64,000 bases of DNA from Prorocentrum cordatum (lineage: Eukaryota > Sar > Dinophyceae > Prorocentrales > Prorocentraceae). Every line of letters begins with the position of its first letter. Position 1 is the first letter of the stretch. The translations under genes were made by a program, and so were the position numbers. Location of the stretch: positions 87,996-151,995 of the forward strand of contig CAUYUJ010020700.1 in NCBI GenBank assembly GCA_963575745.1, written 5' to 3'. Below the pieces are notes generated by a model. That model saw only the letters and a list, made by a program, of their open reading frames with translations. It made no database searches and was not told where the DNA came from. Shown here piece by piece: positions 25,521-43,235 of this stretch.

Positions 25521-25967
25521 TCCATCATGCTCAGGCCTGCCTGGGCCCATCGCCACCTACCCACCCTGCCACCTGCTCTCCCCGAAGGTTCGGAGGGTCC
25601 CAGGAGGCGTATTCCGCCCACTGGGCAGGTGTACCTCGATGGAATTCGCAAGTGCCGTACCGATAACCTGATTTGACTCGAGCAGATGGCTTGCGTGGTG
25701 GTTGGGTCATGTTACTTCGCTTCGCGATAGGTCCATTCCGTTCCATCCCCCCCCCCCGTAGCGGTTCGAGGCCAATGGCGAGGGCGCGATGGCGGGCCTG
25801 GTGATCGGATTCGCGTTCGGGATCATACGCTTCGTCACCAACTACTGGGCCGACCCGCCGTGCGCCGCCGGCTCTGGCGCGCCCGCCGCCCCTCCTCGCG
25901 ACGGGGGGGTGGAGCAGCCCGAGAGGGCAACAGAAAGGCAGAAGCCTTCGGAGCTCGGCGCTCGGTA

Positions 25968-26166
25968 GCATCGAAGACGAAAGCACTGCATCAGCATGAA
26001 CTCTCGGCGGTCCGCGCGGATTTCTTGGATCTGCGCTGGAGCCCCCTGGCGGCGCCGCCACTGGCGCGCTCCGCGCGTCAGAGAGGGGGGTCCAGCGCAG
26101 AACCAAGACATCGGCGCTGACCGCCAACCGTTTATGTTTGTGCCATGTTTCGTTCCTCTATAGCAG
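25968..26166 (+). mobile_element. introner-like inverted-repeat element, intergenic copy
   Basis: The element starts GCATCGAAGACG and ends in a pyrimidine-rich stretch with TTCCTCTATAGCAG, so it has the outline of a GC-AG intron. Inside are inverted arms at about 26001-26045 and 26085-26127, sharing GATTTCTTGGATCTGCGCTGG and its diverged complement. The whole aligns with the intron at 36175-36334 (left flank, both arms, and the GTTTRTG...TTTC-pyrimidine-AG end). No coding exon is clear on either side, so it may be an inactive copy or the intron of an unseen gene. Confidence 0.6.
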
Positions 26167-26284: not shown

Positions 26285-26439
26285 CTAGGGGACCACATGC
26301 AAACCATACCCCTACCCCCACGATTTCTGAGGGGGAGGGTGTGGCTCACTTCGCTCAAGAGCTCCAGAACGAAGTGAACCCCACCCTTCCCCTCAGAAAT
26401 CGTGGGGGGTAGGGGTAGGGTTCGCATGTGGTCCTCTAG
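26285..26439. repeat. long foldback repeat
   Basis: Arms of about 70 bp (26285-26353 and 26370-26439) are near-perfect reverse complements with about 16 bp between them. The outer ends read CTAGGGGACCACATGC and GCATGTGGTCCTCTAG. Purine and pyrimidine runs (CCCCTACCCCCACG and complement) sit in mid-arm. No coding frame is present. It lies about 120 bp from the introner-like copy but does not share its sequence. Confidence 0.85.
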
Positions 26440-34877: not shown

Positions 34878-35085
34878 GGGCCTCCCGGACGGGGTCCCCG
34901 GGCAGACGGGGTCGGAAGACCACGCCGTAGCGCCGAGGCATCGGCGATGTATCGGCAATGTGGAGCCCGATGTTCTCCACGCACGCCGTCGTCGCCGATC
35001 GCCGACGTCGCGAGACGTCGGCGACGCATCGGCGATGCGGCGCGATCCCCCGACCCCAGCCACTCGGACCCTATCGGGGAGGCCT
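34878..35085. repeat. foldback element, family A, copy 2
   Basis: The right arm (about 35018-35085, with GGCGATGCGGCGCGATC and CACTCGGACC) matches the right arm of the copy at 609-820. The left arm (34878-34945) is its diverged complement. The centre has GTCGCGAGACGTCGGCGAC-type palindromes. Confidence 0.6.
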
Positions 35086-35149
35086 CTATGGGGGCCAACT
35101 GGGGCAGTAGGGGGCCGCGGGCCGGCTCTCGGGTCTGCGGGGGAGCGGG

Positions 35150-35620
35150 GCGGCCCCAGGGGAGAAGGAGAGAGGGGCGAAGAGGGGGTGGGTGGGGGTG
35201 GAGGGAGAGGGGCGAGGAGGAGAGAGAGAGAGAGAGAGGCGAGGAGGCATGGGAGAAGGAGAGAGAGGGGAGAAGGAGAGAGAGGGGAGAATGAGAGAGA
35301 GAGTGGAGAAGGAGAGAGAGGGGAGAGGGAGAGGAGAGAGGGAGAGGGCGAGGGGAGAAGGAGAGAGAGGCGAGGAGGAGAGGGAGAGAGGGGCGAGGAG
35401 GGAGGGGGGTCGGGCTCGGGAAGGGTACCAGGGCCAGAAGGAGTAGGCGGGGGAAGGGTCAAGGTCAGGATCAGGAGGATCGGGGTCAGAGAGAGGGGGT
35501 CGAGGAAGACAAGAAGGAGGAGGACGAGGAGGAGGAGGAGGAGGATCGGGGCCAGAAGGAGGGAGATGACCAGGACAAGGGGGGTCGGGATGACGGCCAG
35601 GAGGGTCAGGGGTCAGGAGG
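35150..35620. repeat. GAGAGG-rich purine tract
   Basis: About 450 bp of nearly pure purine on the plus strand (GAGAGAGAGGGGAGAAG variants), ending in GGA repeats near 35515-35560. All frames read Arg/Glu/Gly strings. Confidence 0.85.
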
Positions 35621-35820
35621 TATGTTCGTTTTGTGGGCCAGCGGATGCTCTTTTGCTCCTCCTTGTGCTCGCTACTCCTGTTTCCCCATCGTCGCATTAA
35701 CCGTCCTACCTCTTGTCATCCTGCTCGTCCTTGTCCTCCGTCTCATCCATTCCGTTGTCGTCCTCTTCTTCTTCTCCCGTTCCCAGAAGCCGTTGGATAT
35801 CCGTGCCCCCTCCCCCAGCT

Positions 35821-35841
35821 CCGTAGCCGTTTTGGCTCAAG
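35821..35841 (+). promoter_or_regulatory. relict dinoflagellate spliced leader
   Basis: The sequence reads CCGTAGCC-G-TTTTGGCTCAAG, preceded by T. The dinoflagellate spliced leader is known as D-CCGTAGCC-A-TTTTGGCTCAAG, so 20 of 21 invariant positions match. It lies 48 bp upstream of the ATG at 35889, on the coding strand, where a leader would sit in a mature mRNA. Just after it, TCACTCTTGGTCAAACG may be an older, more decayed leader. It is not a leader RNA gene because no donor (GT) follows the CAAG. Upstream is a pyrimidine-rich tract (35650-35815) ending in CCCCCAG, a plausible acceptor for present-day trans-splicing. Confidence 0.9.
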
Positions 35842-35888
35842 TCACTCTTGGTCAAACGTTTCCATGTCCTGACTATTGAACGTTTTCA

Positions 35889-38016
35889 ATGGCGGGCGCA
35901 TCGCTGCGCGTCCTGCTCTGTGCCCTGCTGGCGCTCGCGTGCGAAGGCCAGCTCGATGACGCCGTGGGCATGGTCCAGGCCGCGCTGGAGTGGCCCACGC
36001 TGGGCGCAAGCCGCGCCTTGGGCGCCACCCACGCTGCGCAGCGCGGCAGGGTCCGATCGAAGGCGAGCACAGAGGCCGTGGACAAGCTCATGAGAGAGGC
36101 CCGGGAGAAGAGCAGGAGGAAGAGGACGCCCTCCTTCCAGTTCAGCCACTCCCCCAAGGAGGCCACAGCCCCAAGCAAGAGACAACGTCACAACCATACA
36201 CTTTCGGAGCTCCGATCGGATGTCTCCTGGATCGGCGCTGGGCCTCTGGCGCGCTCCAGGGGGCCCAGCACCGATCCAAGAAGTCCGTGCGGAGGTCCGA
36301 CAGTTTGTGCTTATGCCGTTCTTTCTTCTCACAGCGGAGGCCAGCACCGGGAAAACGGGGGAGGCCAGCGCCCAGAAGGCCGTAGAGGTCGGCGCCAACG
36401 CGAAGGAGGCAGAGGCCAGCACCGAATGGAGCAGCCAGAGCTACATCATCGAGAAGACGGCAGTGGCCAGCACCCGGGAGGCCTCCGAGAGCGGTGCCGC
36501 CAGGAAGGGAGCAGAGGCCACCATCACGAAGGCCAGCCAGAGCGACACTGAGGAGAAGCAGTCTGGGGCCCGTGCCCAAGTTGAGGCCACAATCACAGAG
36601 GCCAGCGGGAGCGGCACCGCGGTGCAGGAGGCAGAGGCCACCGTCATCGAGGACAACGACAGCGGCACCGCCGGGAGAGGAGCGGAAGCCAGCAATGCCG
36701 ACGCTGCTGGGAAGAGGGCGGAGGCCGCCGCCGTGGAGGCAGCGGGAAGCAGTGGGAAGCAGGCAGAGGCAACTGGCAGCCAGGCCGCCGGGGAGAGAGC
36801 CGAAGACACCCAGCAGGCCGCCACTGTCAGCGGGAGCGGCGCCGTCGCGAGTGGGACCGTGGGCCACTGGGCTCAGCAGATGCACCAGGCTGGTTTTGCC
36901 AACTGGCTGGACTATAATGCCCACAAGAGGGAGACCAAGAAGAAGTTCGAGGCCCTCGGCAGCTATTTCTCCAGCAGAGAGGAGGACGATGCGGCGGCGA
37001 CAGTGAACGGGCTGGCTTGGCCGGCCCATGCGCCGATGCCCAAGCCAGCGCTCATCACCATGCTGAACAGGGCGCGCCTTGGCAACCGCCTCTTCCAGTG
37101 GGCGGCTCTGCTGTCCATCACGAAGGAGGCCGGCGCGCGTGCCGCAGCCCCTCACAACGAGAGGTACAAACCTGGCGCGATCCCACAGCTTGACAACCTG
37201 GAGGAGCTCATCTGGTCGAGCGAGGACATGGACTGGCTGAACACACAAGATCATAAGTGCCACATGTGGGACTTCGGCTGGCCCCTGAAGCTCGACTATG
37301 ACCTCGGGAACCTATCCAACTGGACGCTCTCGGGCGTGTCTAAGGGCGAGTTGCACATCCAATCTGCCCTAGAGCCGCGGAAGGGCATGAACTGGGCGCG
37401 CGTGTGGGCGGACGCGATCCTGACCACGCCAACCCCCAGCCCCTGCTCGGTCGTCGAGCTGGACGGATTCTGGCAGCGACCAGAGTTTTTCGTGCACCAC
37501 CTCAACTGGCTTCGGCCGACCTTCTGGAACGCAGAGGTCGCTGGCCAGGCCAGGCACATCCTGGACAGCTGGCTCGAGAAGACGGGCCCGGCGGGCGCAG
37601 TCGTGGGCATCCACCTGCGGCTGGGGGACTACATCGGCATGGGCAGGAATTTGGACATGGACTACTACAGGAACGGGCTGCTGGAGGTGAAGCGGCACCG
37701 CAACGTGGACGAGCTCACGTGCGTCATATTCTCGGACGACATCCACCTGGCCTCAAACGTCAGCCTGGAGCTGGAATCGTGCACGAAGCGCATCCCCGTA
37801 TACCCGTGCAGGGAGCTCGGGAAGGAGTACCATTGTAAGCGTGCCGAGAGAGTCGTCAATGACAGAGTGAGCTTCTACATGATGAGCCAGCTGCCCAACA
37901 TCATCCTGTTGCGCTGCCGCGCCAATCCGCCGCCGCGCTTGGGAAGGGCGACTGGGGGAGGGTGCGCTAGCTGTGGAGGGCTTGGGGGGGACGGAGGTTG
38001 GTGCCCGCACCACTGA
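35889..38016 (+). CDS. GT11 family (alpha-1,2-fucosyltransferase-like) glycosyltransferase
   Basis: Joined exons 35889-36174 and 36335-38016 give one 655-residue frame. The start is the first ATG after the leader relic and begins MAGASLRVLLCALLALACEG, a signal peptide or signal anchor expected of a Golgi/ER enzyme. A long Ala/Glu/Ser/Thr-rich stem follows (about residues 95-290). The catalytic domain shows GNRLFQW (about 345), HLRLGDY (about 522; the family's HxRRGDY motif that binds GDP-fucose, with Leu for one Arg) and FSDD (about 561). WQRPEFFVHHLNWLRP also fits the family. Expected role: transfer of fucose from GDP-fucose to a galactose-type acceptor. The family's final block (usually N-S/T-F-x-x-W-W-A, about 50 residues) is missing: similarity stops at LPNIIL (about 37908) and the rest looks unrelated. 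Either a further intron lies there or the gene is 3'-truncated. Introduced by retroposition, judging from the leader relic. Confidence 0.85.
36175..36334 (+). other. GC-AG intron carrying an introner-like inverted repeat
   Basis: The 160-bp interval starts GCAAGAGACAACG and ends TTCTTTCTTCTCACAG. Removing it joins the signal-peptide frame to the glycosyltransferase frame with no stop (codon split after its first base, giving ATAPTEASTGK). Without removal the first frame runs off the catalytic frame. Inside, arms at about 36201-36253 and 36252-36303 are imperfect inverted repeats sharing TGGATCGGCGCTGGGCC. Related arms occur in the element at 25968-26166. GC donors are known in dinoflagellates. 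Alternative donors a few bases away cannot be excluded. Confidence 0.75.
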
Positions 38017-38068
38017 TTGTGAAGGCTTTGCGGTTCGTGCCGCCGACCCTGGAAGAAAGCCTTCCATG

Positions 38069-38265
38069 ATTCAGGCGATCGCAAACATGGATTGAGGGGG
38101 CGGGGATTAGCGACGGGTCCCGTTTCCAAGGGAACTCGCGGATTTCCGCCGCCGAGCGAGGCGGCACCGGCCGCATTCTGGGTAGGGCACCTCCCCCGAT
38201 CAGTGGATTTGGAGACCGCGCGCCAAATCCATGGATCGTTAATCCATGTTTGCGCGCCCCCGAAT
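38069..38265. mobile_element. MITE with terminal inverted repeats, copy 2
   Basis: A 197-bp element with ends ATTCAGGCGATCGCAAACAT and ATCCATGTTTGCGCGCCCCC, the same family as 5457-5654. It starts 53 bp after the stop codon of the glycosyltransferase frame, close to where that gene seems to be truncated. Confidence 0.8.
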
Positions 38266-38419
38266 GATGAAGGAGACAGCCAGAGTTGTTCGGGAAGGTT
38301 GGGACCAGAATTCCCGAAGAGTTTCCCTGAAGCCTCATGAGGTTCCCAAGAAGCGTACGACGAGGACCACAGCTTGGCCAAGCTATCTGCCTGTGTGCTT
38401 TCGCAGCCGCTGGGGGACG

Positions 38420-38545
38420 AAGAGGGGGGGAATCAGGAGAGGGAGGAGGCGGCGGAGGAGAAGAGCAGGAGGAGTGGGAGGAGCAGGAGGAGTAGAACGA
38501 GCAGTACAACAAGGACGATGAGGAGGAGGAGGAGGAGGAGACCTC
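38420..38545. repeat. GGA-rich microsatellite
   Basis: GGA/GCAGGA iterations, the purest run at 38519-38543, leading straight into an 11-bp array block. Confidence 0.85.
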
Positions 38546-38830
38546 TTGGGAGCCTTTTCGGGACTCTGGGAACCTCCTCAGGCTTCATGGCGACCTCTTG
38601 CCGCCCTCCAGGCCCGTCTTGGAGGGCAGCTTGGATCGTCTTGGCGGCAATGCAGCGCCGTCCTGACTATCTGGGAGTCGAGCCGTGCCGTCTTTTGGAG
38701 AATTCTGTGGGAGCCCTCTGGGGGCTCTCTTGGGGCGTTCGAGCCCACATCCCATCCCGCCACCGTGCATTGTTGGGGACCTTCTGAGGATCCTCTTGGA
38801 TTTCTCGCCAGGCTCTCTTAGAGGCTTATT
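38545..38830. repeat. degenerate 11-bp array block
   Basis: CTCTTGGGAGCC and CTCTTGGGGCG type units mixed with unique sequence. Confidence 0.55.
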
Positions 38831-39061
38831 GTAGCTGTCTTTGGGCTCTCCGAGAGTTCCATAAGGGTTGAAGAGGGGCCCCAAAGGGTACCAAGATGTT
38901 TTAAAAGTCGTACGATGGCCCCATGCCAGCCCCAGAATTAGCCTGCAACAGTTTCAAACCAAAGGTACCTGAAACGATACTGTTGAGAGCTTGCTTGGAA
39001 TTCCGCGGGGTCCTCTGGGGTCTCTCTTGGGGCGCTCGGGCGATTTCAGGCCCCTCTTGGA

Positions 39062-39250
39062 CTATCTAAGACGCCTACGGCGAATCACCGCCGCCCCCTG
39101 CCTTTTGGAATCGCCCGTGTGGCCGAACGTGGTGGCCAGAGCTCTGCGGAACTATCGGACCATGTGTTCCCCCAGCCGTTGTGGAAACCCCTCGGGGAAC
39201 ACTTGGGGGAGGATAGCGGGGAAGATCAGAAGGAGGAGGAGGAGGAGGAG
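39062..39250. repeat. dispersed module, family E, copy 1
   Basis: Contains AGACGCCTACGGCGAATCAC, CGCCGCCCCCTGCC, GAACTATCGGACCATGTG and CTCGGGGAACACTTGGG, followed by a GGA run. The same order occurs at 39985-40185 and 44795-44995. Confidence 0.7.
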
Positions 39251-39264
39251 AAGGAGAAGAGGGG

Positions 39265-39860
39265 GGCATCTTGGGAGGCCTCTTGGAGGTATGCTGGGGG
39301 CCTTGAGCCTCTTGGGGGGGCCTCGTTGGCCGTCTCAGGGCGTTCCTGGCCCGTGTGACACGGTCGGAAGCCGTCTTGGGGGCCTCTCTCAACCGACTTG
39401 GGGCCCTCTTGGGGTGCTCCAGGGCCGTCTTGGAGGCCATCCTGGGCATCTTGGAGACTTCTTGGGCCCTCTTGGGGCTGTCTTGGGGGCCTCCGGCCTC
39501 TTGGGCCCTTCTGGGGTCATCTTGGAGGCCTTGTGGGCGATCTTGGAGCGATCTTGGCGGCCCCTTGGGCCGTCTCGGGCCGTTGGAGGGCCGAAAAGAA
39601 CCGAATGCCAACATCTTTCAAATCCCTGAGGAGCATCAACGATCTGTGCCTGTTCGGGTCTTCCTGGAGGCCCTCTTGGGGGCCTCCGGAGCCGTCTTGG
39701 AGGCCTCTTGGGGGCCTCTTGGGCCGTCTTGGGCCATCTTGGAGCCGTCTTAGGCCGACTTGGCGGCTTCTTGGGCGGACTTGGAGACATCTTGTACCCT
39801 CTTGGGCCGTCTTGGAGGCCGTGATGGGACCACTGTGGACGAACATGGAGGCACATTTGA
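39265..39860. repeat. 11-bp array block
   Basis: Long degenerate array of CTTGGGGGCCT / CCGTCTTGGAGG units, interrupted at about 39590-39660 by CCGAAAAGAACCGAATGCC and a CAATGATTTTGGC-like spacer relative. Confidence 0.8.
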
Positions 39861-39984
39861 GCCTTCTTGGCCGGCTTGGAGGCGATTTGGGCAATGGGCG
39901 TCGAAATTTCTGCGGCTTTCGGGGTGGCTGGCGCGCTGGGCCGAAGTCCCAGGGAAAGCTTGTTTACAAGTACCAAACAACTCT

Positions 39985-40190
39985 AAGAAGTTTAGCACGC
40001 CAGGCACCCCTATGATAAATTAACAGGGGGCGGCGGATCAAAGACGCCTACGGCGAAGCACCACCGCCCTCTGCCCGTTGGGAAGCGCCTCTGTGGCCGA
40101 CAGCTGGGCCAGAGCTTGGCCAAGCTATCGGGCCAGTTGTTCCCCGAGTCGGTTGGGAAAGGCTTCGGGGAACGCGTGGGGGAGCAAGAA
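39985..40190. repeat. dispersed module, family E, copy 2
   Basis: Begins after TTTAGCACGCCAGGCACCCC, then GGGGGCGGCGGATCAAAGAC, GCCTACGGCGAAGCACC, AAGCTATCGGGCCAGTTGTT and CTTCGGGGAACGCGTGGG. It ends in a GA-rich run. Confidence 0.75.
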
Positions 40191-40321
40191 GAGGAGGAGG
40201 GGGAGAATGACACAATTATAGCCAGAGTGCAGTATCCCCAAACAGGGTTTTTAGACCCACTGCGGTTTCCAAGGTCGATTGCGTGCCCGTCCAGTGCGGG
40301 CTGGCATGGCATGTGAAAACA

Positions 40322-40377
40322 TGCCTCCTCTTCCTCCTCCTGCTCCTCCTCCTCCTCCTCCTCCTCCACCTCCTCTT
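40322..40377. repeat. (CTC)n microsatellite
   Basis: CTC/CTT run directly ahead of the 64-bp array. Confidence 0.9.
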
Positions 40378-40384
40378 CATCCCG

Positions 40385-43235
40385 AACGGCATCTCGGAGC
40401 CCAGAGTTGCGAGGATGTCTCCAGCGTAACGGGCTGGACCACCTCGCGCGCGGCATCTCGGACCCCAGAGTTGCGACGATGTCTCGGGCAAAACGTGCTG
40501 CGAGGAAGTCTGAGGCGAAACGGGCCGGACCACCTCGAGCGCGGCGTCTCAGAGCTCCGAGTTGCGGGGGCCTCCTGGTGCCTCCTGGGACCTCCTGGTG
40601 ACCTCCTGGGGCTTCCTCCTGGGCCTCCTATGGCCTGCTGGACCCCACCTGGGGCTTCCTGAAGCCTGTTGGGGCTCCCATGGGGGGATATCTAACATGT
40701 GGCCGTCGGGGCCCCCCCAAATGGGGGGGGGGGCACAAGAGCAGGACAAATCAACGAATCGACCCCAGATGTGTATTATCTTGACACGTTCTGAGAGGGG
40801 GCCTCCTGGGGCCTCCTGGGAGCCTCCTGGGAATCTCCTGGGGACCCCTGGGGCCTGTCCTGGGCGTCCTGCGGCCTCCTGAAGCTCTCTGGGGCCTCCT
40901 GGGAGCCACATGTGGTCTTCTGGGCCCCCAGGCTGGACCACCTCTTGCGCGGCATCTGAGAGCTCAGAGTTGCGAGAATGTCTTGTGCGAAACAGGCCGG
41001 ACCATCTTGCGCACGGCATCTCAGAGCTCAGAGTTGCGAGGATGTCTCAGGCGAGACGGGCCGGACCACCTCGCGCAGGGCATCTCAGAGCTCAGAAGTG
41101 CGAGGATGTCTCAGGCGGGCTCCCAGGGTCCCAGGGAGGATATGTAACATGTGGTCTTCTGGGCCCCCAGGCTGGACCACCTCTTGCGCGGCATCTGGGA
41201 GTTCAGAGTTGCGAGAATGTCTTGTGCGAAACGGGCCGAACCACCTTGCGCACGGCATCTCAGAGCTCAGAGTTGCGAGGATGTCTCAGGCGAGACGGGC
41301 CGGACCACCTCGCGCAGGGCATCTCGGAGCCCAGAGTTGCCAGGATGTCTCAGGCGAAACGGGCTGGACCACCTCGCGCGCGGCATCTCGGACCCCAGAG
41401 TTGCGACGATGTCTCGGGCGAAACGTGCTGCGAGGAAGTCTCAGGCGAAACGGGCCAGACCACCTCGAGCGCGGCGTCTCAGAGCTCCGAGTTGCGGGGG
41501 CCTCCTGGGGCCTCCTGGGGTCTCCTGGTGACTTCCTGGGGCTTCCTCCTGGGCCTCCTGTGGCCTCCTGGACCCCACCTGGGGCCTGTTGGGGCTCCCA
41601 TGGGGGGATATCTAACATGTTGCCGTCGGGGCCCCCCAAAATGGGGGAGGGGGGCCACAAGAGCAGGAAAACTCAACGAATCAACACCGGATTTGTATTA
41701 ATTTGACACGTTCTGATAGGGGGCCTCCTGGGAGCCTCCTGGGAATCTCCTGCGGACCCCTGGGGCCTGTCCTGGGCGTCCTGCGGCTTCCTGAAGCTCT
41801 CTGGGGCCTCCTGGGGCTCCCAGGGTCCCAGGGGATATGTAACATGTGGTCTTCTGGGCCCCCAGGCTGGACCACCTCTTGCGCAGCATTTGAGAGCTCA
41901 GAGTTGCGAGAATGTCTTGTGCGAAACGGGCCGAACCAACTTGCGCACGGCATCTCAGAGCTCAGAGTTGCGAGGATGTCTCAGGCGAGACGGGCCGGTG
42001 TCTCGGGCGAAACGCGCTGCGAGGAAGTCTCAGGCGAAACGGGCCGTACTACCTCGAGCGCGGCGTCTCAGAGCTCCGAGTTGCGGGGGCCTCCTGGGGC
42101 CTCCTGGGGACCTCCTGGGGCTTCCTCCTGAGCCTCCTGGGGCCTCCTGAACTCCACCTGGGGTTTCCCGAAGCCTCTTGGGGCTCCCAGAAGGGATATC
42201 TAACCTGTGGCCGCTTGGGCCTCTCAAAATGGAGGGGGGGGCGCAAGAGCAGGAAAAATCAACGAATCGACACCGGATGTGTATTAACTTGACACGTTCT
42301 GATAGGGGGCCTCCTGGGGCCTCCTGGGAGCCTCCTGGGAATCTCCTGGGGACCCCTGGGGCCTGTCCTGGGCGTCCTGCGGCCTCCTGGAGCTCTCTGG
42401 GCCTCCTGGGGCTCCCAGGGTCCCAGGGAGGATATGTAACATGTGGTCTTCTGGGCCCCCAGGCTGGACCACCTCTTGCGCGGCATCTGAGAGCTCAGAG
42501 TTGCGAGAATGTCTTGTGCGAAACAGGCCGGACCACCTTGCGCACGGCATCTCAGAGCTCAGAGTTGCGAGGATGTCTCAGGCGAGACGGGCCGGACCAC
42601 CTCGCGCAGGGCATCTCAGAGCTCAGAAGTGCGAGGATGTCTCAGGCGGGCTCCCAGGGTCCCAGGGAGGATATGTAACATGTGGTCTTCTGGGCCCCCA
42701 GGCTGGACCACCTCTTGCGCGGCATCTGGGAGTTCAGAGTTGCGAGAATGTCTTGTGCGAAACAGGCCGGACCACCTTGCGCACGGCATCTCAGAGCTCA
42801 GATTTGCGAGGATGTCTCAGGCGAGACGGGCCGGACCACCTCGCGCAGTGCATCTCAGAGCTCAGAAGTTCGAGGATGTCTCAGCCGAAACGGGCCGGAC
42901 CACCTCTTGCGCGGCATCTCCGAGGTCAGAGATGCGAGGATGTCTCAGGCGAAACGGGCCGGACCACCTCGCGCAGGGCATCTCAGAGCTCAGAGTTTCA
43001 AGGATGTCTCAGGCGAAACGGCCCGGACCACCTCTCGCACGGCACCTCGGGGCTCAGAGTTTCGAGGATGTCTCAAGCGAAACGGCCCGGACCACCTCTC
43101 GCGCGGCGTCCCAGAGCGCAACTGTTCGAGGATGTCTCAGGCGAAACGGCCAATCCCGGCCAACTCAGAAACGAGAGTTGTGAGGATGTCTCAAGCGAAA
43201 CGGCCCGGACCATCAAATTTTTGTGAGGATGTCTC
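40385..43235. repeat. 64-bp tandem repeat with higher-order structure
   Basis: The basic unit is about 64 bp (for example the step 41017 to 41081), containing CATCTCAGAGCTCAGAGTTG, CGAGGATGTCTCAGGCG and CGGGCCGGACCACCTCGCG. Groups of units alternate with about 370-bp blocks of CCTCCTGGGGCCTCCTGGGG type that carry ATATCTAACATGTGG and TGACACGTTCTGA. Such blocks recur near 40555, 41487 and 42080, so there are three higher-order copies. The stretch 40927-41168 is repeated almost exactly at 42459-42700. The last third (42830-43235) is a plain run of diverging 64-bp units. Confidence 0.9.

Follow-up and report, generated by a model that had tools for sequence, protein, structure and literature searches.

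How does a gene that seems to have arisen by retroposition, and should have started without introns, come to be interrupted by one? The question is raised by a locus of the dinoflagellate Prorocentrum cordatum that lies in a 64,000-nucleotide stretch of DNA (G000:C19851:87996-151995, analyzed as a whole and called the window below). The 3' edge of the window is the end of a contig, in an assembly of 4.13 Gb and 21875 contigs. An earlier note, made from the letters of the window, had proposed that an introner-like element created the intron after retroposition. We consider it probable that a fold-back element inserted into a GT11-like retrocopy and is now removed as a GC-AG intron, through splice sites in a coding repeat that flanks it.

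The gene opens with an ATG at position 35889 of the forward strand. The coding part of exon 1 (35889 to 36161, forward strand), which starts with MAGASLRVLLCALLALACEGQ and resembles a signal peptide when judged by eye, is identical to residues 1-91 of P0001, a 719-residue protein that was derived from an MMETSP transcript and represents a cluster of five sequences. Exon 2 (36340 to 37908, forward strand) encodes a linker and an unbroken GT11-like domain; it matches P0001 up to 37908, beyond which DNA and transcript diverge. This exon matches Pfam PF01531 directly under the curated cut-off, and 17 of the 19 homologs with E <= 0.001 carry a precomputed PF01531 (glycosyltransferase 11) domain; solved structures, searched by sequence for the gene's protein, gave no match. 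A genome search with a relative, P0002, in which all 59 candidates were scored, returned 31 matches. The window locus (92%) is the sole one above 90%, the next by score reaching 71% and short exons at most 87%, a uniqueness that applies to the part of the gene other than exon 1 and the linker, neither of which is covered by the P0002 query.

Over 37908-38016, past the residues PNII and about 1.5 kb from the intron, the DNA of the gene departs from both P0001 and another transcript protein, P0004. Residues 615-719 of P0001 have no coding DNA in the window and are the same in P0004 and P0008; these last 105 residues are those of P0008, which belongs to another gene, on contig C19988. On C19988 the exons for the body of P0008 match it at 78-100%, and the C-terminal exon, over 54 residues, at 88.9%; an overrun into the intron has probably lowered this last value, since the first 20 residues of that exon are all identical. 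The mismatch past 37908 may mean that the gene is a mosaic, that the assembly is broken there or that the transcript is chimeric. P0004 has its body in common with P0001 but lacks exon 1 and the linker, and is therefore uninformative on the junction.

The frame of the ATG at 35889 meets the downstream reading frame solely after removal of a length of 1 modulo 3, which bears out the claim that an interval has to be taken out for the frames to join. Aligned with the join of the earlier note, P0001 shows 613 identical columns out of 620, six gaps and one different column, the last; P0001 is six residues shorter, and 178 nt must therefore be removed. Nine cuts give the same protein, because eight bases (GGAGGCCA) occur twice, and only one of them, 36162-36339 (forward strand), has GN-AG ends. 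The transcript-derived protein is thus consistent with a phase 0, GC-AG intron of 178 nt. That a GC-AG interval is removed stands, but the ends first given to it (36175-36334) are off by 13 nt on the 5' side and by 5 nt on the 3' side: this 160-nt GC-AG cut yields KEATAPTEASTGK, where P0001 reads KEASTGK. Both lengths keep the frame, and the residues of P0001 are given by 178 nt alone. The junction is documented at the protein level, by the representative of one protein cluster translated from an assembled transcript.

As the same note had recognized, the interval consists mostly of an inverted-repeat element. The RNA of 36162-36339 folds at -89.8 kcal/mol (z -7.26), with 0 of 200 shuffles equally good, and the arm motif, with up to three mismatches allowed, occurs four times in the window versus 0.12 expected. 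The element itself is a fold-back, MITE-like sequence of 160 bp (36170 to 36329, no strand assigned); it shares 81.3% identity with the 39-copy consensus (19% divergence), and its arms are 76.6% alike (11.7% divergence per arm). Its right terminus forms a pyrimidine tract, TTCTTTCTTCT (36319 to 36329, forward strand), and similar pyrimidine-rich right ends are common to other copies. Searched against the genome, the element gave 2034 first-look candidates, of which 40 were scored, with 61 matches, and many places match on both strands. Forty matching loci were taken and a profile was built from eight copies; L001 (the same as the window) and L009 (plain flank) were left out before the profile search. 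With near-full copies defined as profile matches running from position 12 or lower to 155 or higher with E <= 1e-15, the profile found 41 such copies in these loci; L012, L013, L017, L024 and L040, together with other partial or weaker copies, fell short of this definition. Two were dropped: L025, which was regarded as repeating L022, and an L019 copy that lay at the edge of its locus. The 39-copy consensus has 165 positions and folds into a single hairpin of 77 pairs. The family is large and, as expected of introners, has similar copies at many genomic loci.

The flanks of these copies carry more direct repeats than expected. Of the 729 offset pairs scanned, the best one has identical 5-mers on both sides of 7 of the 39 copies, where mispaired flanks predict 0.05; all offsets together give 62 identical 5-mers versus 38.7 expected. 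A repeat of at least 5 bp occurs in the search zone of 17 of the 39 copies (5.9 expected), and in 11 copies, the one at 36170-36329 included, a narrow terminal zone holds an exact repeat 5-8 bp long. The family shows inverted termini and duplications of a set size at the target site, as MITEs do. That an introner-like element made the intron is thus supported by the transcript junction, the target-site duplication and the large family. Elsewhere in the window, positions 609-820 hold a long inverted repeat (arms of 71 nt, 87% complementary), possibly an element family.

One relative lies in the window itself, a second copy of 190 bp (25971 to 26160, no strand assigned) found by profile match, with no gene recognised around it and with the target-site duplication TAGCA on its flanks (25966 to 25970 on the left, 26161-26165 on the right, forward strand). 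The earlier note had taken 25968-26166 for a diverged relative of its interval, and this relationship is confirmed by the profile (E 1.3e-41, though the copy is among the profile's eight seeds). From the GC and AG at the ends of both it had also argued that splice signals travel with the element, a claim that is not supported at 36162-36339, where the pyrimidine tract alone appears to come from the element. The GC of 25968-26166 is target sequence within the left TAGCA, and its AG is made of the final A of the right TAGCA and the next host G; the GC at 36175 falls within the element, in a position that is not homologous, and is unused by the transcript. Nested palindromes at 26285-26439, adjoining this copy, are possibly a further element family.

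Two repeats compete for the role of target-site duplication around the intron. CACAGC, the probable duplication, directly adjoins both termini of the element (36164 to 36169 and 36330 to 36335, forward strand). The element ends exposed there, CCCAAG and TTCTTCT, resemble by eye TCGAAG and TTCTTCT of other copies. The second repeat, GGAGGCCA, is a host coding repeat whose upstream copy (36158 to 36165, forward strand) contains the AG|GC donor and whose downstream copy (36336 to 36343, forward strand) contains the AG|G acceptor. The coding region contains GAGGCCA eight times, so that GGAGGCCA is most simply an older coding motif. Excision of the element and one CACAGC gives KEATAEASTGKTGEAS; the homolog P0003 reads KEARAGASTRKKEEAS there, equal in length by eye, and P0001 has a four-residue gap against P0003 at the junction. 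This match in length is supportive of CACAGC but not conclusive, because the linker evolves fast. P0003 suggests that the insertion is absent from a relative. The transcript behind P0001, which lacks the four residues kept in P0003, appears to have been copied from the inserted allele. We infer that CACAGC, not GGAGGCCA, is the duplication. Both splice sites would then lie outside element and duplication, whereas they would fall within the duplication if it were GGAGGCCA. If GGAGGCCA pre-existed, host sites on both flanks are used and four codons are lost.

The events may be pictured as follows. A non-autonomous, DNA-transposon-like fold-back element, of a type about 160-200 bp long that makes target-site duplications of 5-6 bp, would have inserted into the linker of the GT11-like gene, duplicating CACAGC; the host gene would be a retrocopy that has kept a spliced-leader relict and is missing an intron of two paralogs. 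The spliceosome would cut 36162-36339 as a GC-AG intron at AG|GC and AG|G in the two copies of GGAGGCCA, taking along 12 nt of host sequence (four codons, which read ATAE in a reconstruction of the empty site) and restoring the frame. The element would supply the pyrimidine tract ahead of the acceptor and, being a near-palindrome, might offer such a tract in either orientation.

The proposed retroposition is supported by two observations that together argue for a retrocopy. A relict of the dinoflagellate spliced leader (DinoSL), with 20 of 21 bases, lies at 35821 to 35841 of the forward strand and ends 47 nt before the ATG at 35889. It was found by a mismatch search with the leader sequence, which PMC6050394 prints as well; with up to three mismatches allowed, it is the one match in 64 kb (itself with one mismatch), against none in 100 shuffles. 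Second, an intron near residue 522 is present in two paralogs (on C13866 and C19988) and absent from the window gene. No A-run of 8 or more, as a poly-A remnant, was found in 35001-42000, a result to be read with the gene's uncertain 3' end in mind. The order of events, retroposition and then insertion, is likely but not proven. The relict, the missing paralog intron and the repeats at the element ends, which point to insertion into continuous coding DNA, favor it; dating by divergence (11.7% per arm versus 1 change in 21 in the relict, P 0.28) speaks neither for nor against.

The genes on C12689, C10624 and C14293, like the window gene, are unbroken across the site at residue 522/523, and P0001 residue 523 is the first of an exon on C13866 and C19988. 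On C13866 about 1.5 kb separate this exon from the one upstream; on C19988 no match was found for the residues just before 523, and 36 kb lie between that exon and the next one matched upstream. The C13866 gene (L046) may also be a retrocopy, though it has the intron: on the reverse strand, 1258-1293 hold two overlapping degenerate leader relicts with 4 and 5 mismatches (a search run with no shuffle control), which end about 75 nt upstream of the ATG. Its intron near residue 522 holds a partial copy of the window element's family (E 1.9e-8).

For four further paralog introns the junctions are set by JGI proteins that lack them and presumably derive from RNA: a GT-AG intron of 152 nt in L043 (repeat GAACAGG; junction by P0005, a close relative, 90-96% identical), GC-AG and GT-AG introns of 167 and 231 nt in L048 (repeats AGGC and GGTTCT) and a GA-AG intron of 638 nt in L049 (repeat GG; junction by P0008). 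Three of the four are hairpins cut within direct repeats of 4, 6 and 7 bp; a repeat of 3-4 bp is expected from the AG|G rule alone, whereas one of 6-7 bp is not. End-to-end pairs in the first 30 bases number 25 in L043 and 13 and 24 in L048, versus 16 in the window, as raw counts with no control run; the L049 intron has no end-to-end pairs and no long repeat. Searched with the family profile, the four gave no match at E <= 1. The L043 intron (L043:2561-2712, on C12689) is a different hairpin, with ends TCGAGTGGGGGGATCGACTAC and the 7-bp repeat GAACAGG, and its GT donor consists of the G of that repeat and the T of the element.

Other family copies also appear to sit in genes, and they bear on how such hairpins are removed. 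It is very unlikely, in our view, that family hairpins can be excised precisely at the target-site duplication, with ends other than GN-AG, by nonconventional splicing guided by structure, in a core dinoflagellate. This reading draws on two copies. In L028 (C19526) the conserved domain of a GT17 gene contains a copy; according to the deposited model, P0020, this copy is an intron with GA-AG ends, which is annotation and not RNA evidence. Scored against Pfam PF04724, a reconstructed exact removal at the degraded duplication reaches 89.7 bits, and the two GN-AG cuts that were tried reach less, 74.2 for GT-AG and 74.9 for the deposited model. In L010 (C11959:17300-20186), where three copies lie within about 1 kb of seemingly one gene (by eye), no GN-AG cut restores exactly the reconstructed sequence of the copy with the duplication ATCCC. 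The reading is weakened by in-frame GT-AG cuts with codon loss that exist, by eye, for this copy and one neighbour, by an exact GA-AG cut for the third copy (also by eye), and by the window itself, where the transcript-compatible cut 36162-36339 is GC-AG and not that of a nonconventional, structure-excised intron. Proteins like that of the L010 gene were sought among 7995 scored candidates, with none at E <= 0.001, and the gene has no match in Pfam; nor has L039. Two copies in L034 surround a weak methyltransferase match (E 0.026, below the cut-off), and one in L006 lies upstream of, and outside, a Nucleotid_trans domain (26.4 bits, cut-off 22). The copies of L010 (three), L034 (two) and L006 (one) thus look genic, partly by eye. 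At the window locus, a copy coincides with an intron supported by a transcript (at the protein level, in one transcript cluster). Open frames with at least 50 residues on both sides were equally frequent across exact and shifted joins (22, 23 and 22 of 29 copies, 10 of the 39 being without a usable duplication), in a test that has no power in GC-rich DNA.

The main reading, an insertion into a retrocopy spliced through host sites, has to be weighed against four others. An inherited intron, carried over because the retroposed RNA was incompletely spliced or because the relict stems from an older event, would imply no gain after retroposition, and we regard this as unlikely. Dinoflagellate retrogenes can keep introns, according to the part of PMC6050394 that treats them, and the C13866 paralog has degenerate relicts yet an intron near residue 522; the end repeats, in contrast, point to an uninterrupted coding stretch at the time of insertion, and none of the paralogs examined has the 36162-36339 intron, though the linker could be aligned with P0003 only. 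Quite unlikely is the usual introner model, in which the 8-bp GGAGGCCA would be the duplication, both splice sites would lie inside it and splicing would restore the pre-insertion sequence. It would explain the exact 8-bp repeat at both cuts, and it has parallels in the paralog introns cut within direct repeats (GAACAGG, GGTTCT) and in the L006 copy adjoined by an 8-bp repeat. But it leaves extra bases at both ends of the element, where CACAGC adjoins ends like those of other copies; it is at odds with the eightfold recurrence of GAGGCCA in the coding region; and the four residues kept by P0003 would, under it, never have existed.

The remaining two deny splicing altogether. Reverse transcriptase can switch templates between direct repeats across a strong hairpin, and the 8-bp repeats do bracket one of -89.8 kcal/mol, so that the gap in the transcript might be such an artifact and the interval no intron. 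We hold this to be highly improbable: retention would break the frame of a gene otherwise open over more than 600 residues, only a third of random switches would keep the frame, the ends of the cut are GC-AG, and the L043 paralog intron has the same anatomy, albeit also between direct repeats. Translation might instead start, unspliced, at the in-frame ATG at 36220 within the interval, since the frame from 36220 to 38016 (598 aa) is open, but P0001 contains exon 1 joined to exon 2, which makes this scarcely credible.

A retrogene offers a clean slate on which to date intron gain, and at this locus the element, the duplication, the coding repeat and the transcript junction are each distinguishable to the base. 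The insertion into a retrocopy suggests that an inserted element can do without splice sites of its own: where GC, GA and GT donors are all accepted, as in this lineage, a matched pair can come from repetitive coding sequence, at the cost of a few codons. If such cases are common, they would give transposons a means of moving exon borders, and small in-frame deletions are predicted beside young introns.

Introners have already been reported for P. cordatum, and what is new here is a well-resolved further case. According to the portion of PMC10666404 on its introns, they are enriched in introner elements, with GT, GC and GA donors at 24.7%, 51.4% and 23.8%. Our search of titles and abstract openings, with most subscription journals outside its scope, found no literature match for an introner insertion into a dinoflagellate retrogene. 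As described for Prorocentrum cordatum, Symbiodinium and Polarella (Roy et al. 2023, as summarised in PMC11453091), dinoflagellate introners resemble the present case in their inverted-repeat introns, target-site duplications, GC/GA/GT donors and intron gain. What sets the present case apart from these accounts is that a host coding repeat, beyond both the element and its probable duplication, holds the two splice sites, and that 12 nt of host codons are lost; for Symbiodinium, the 5' site is co-opted from the duplication and the 3' site is carried by the element (PMC9860276, Fig. 2B). The introner elements of Amoebophrya, as presented in PMC7789003, share hairpin introns with direct repeats at the exon-intron borders, but they are defined there among introns with non-canonical borders (over 60% of introns), whereas a GC-AG cut fits the transcript here. 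As in the euglenid intermediate and nonconventional introns described in PMC4770533, a stable RNA structure joins the intron ends; unlike the nonconventional ones, the window intron has GN-AG ends and gives no sign of a separate removal pathway. Finally, the DinoSL retrogenes of PMC6050394 share the spliced-leader relict upstream of the start codon and the intron-poor copy; in its passages on their introns, these are spoken of as novel or inherited and introners are unnamed, whereas the intron described here derives from an insertion.
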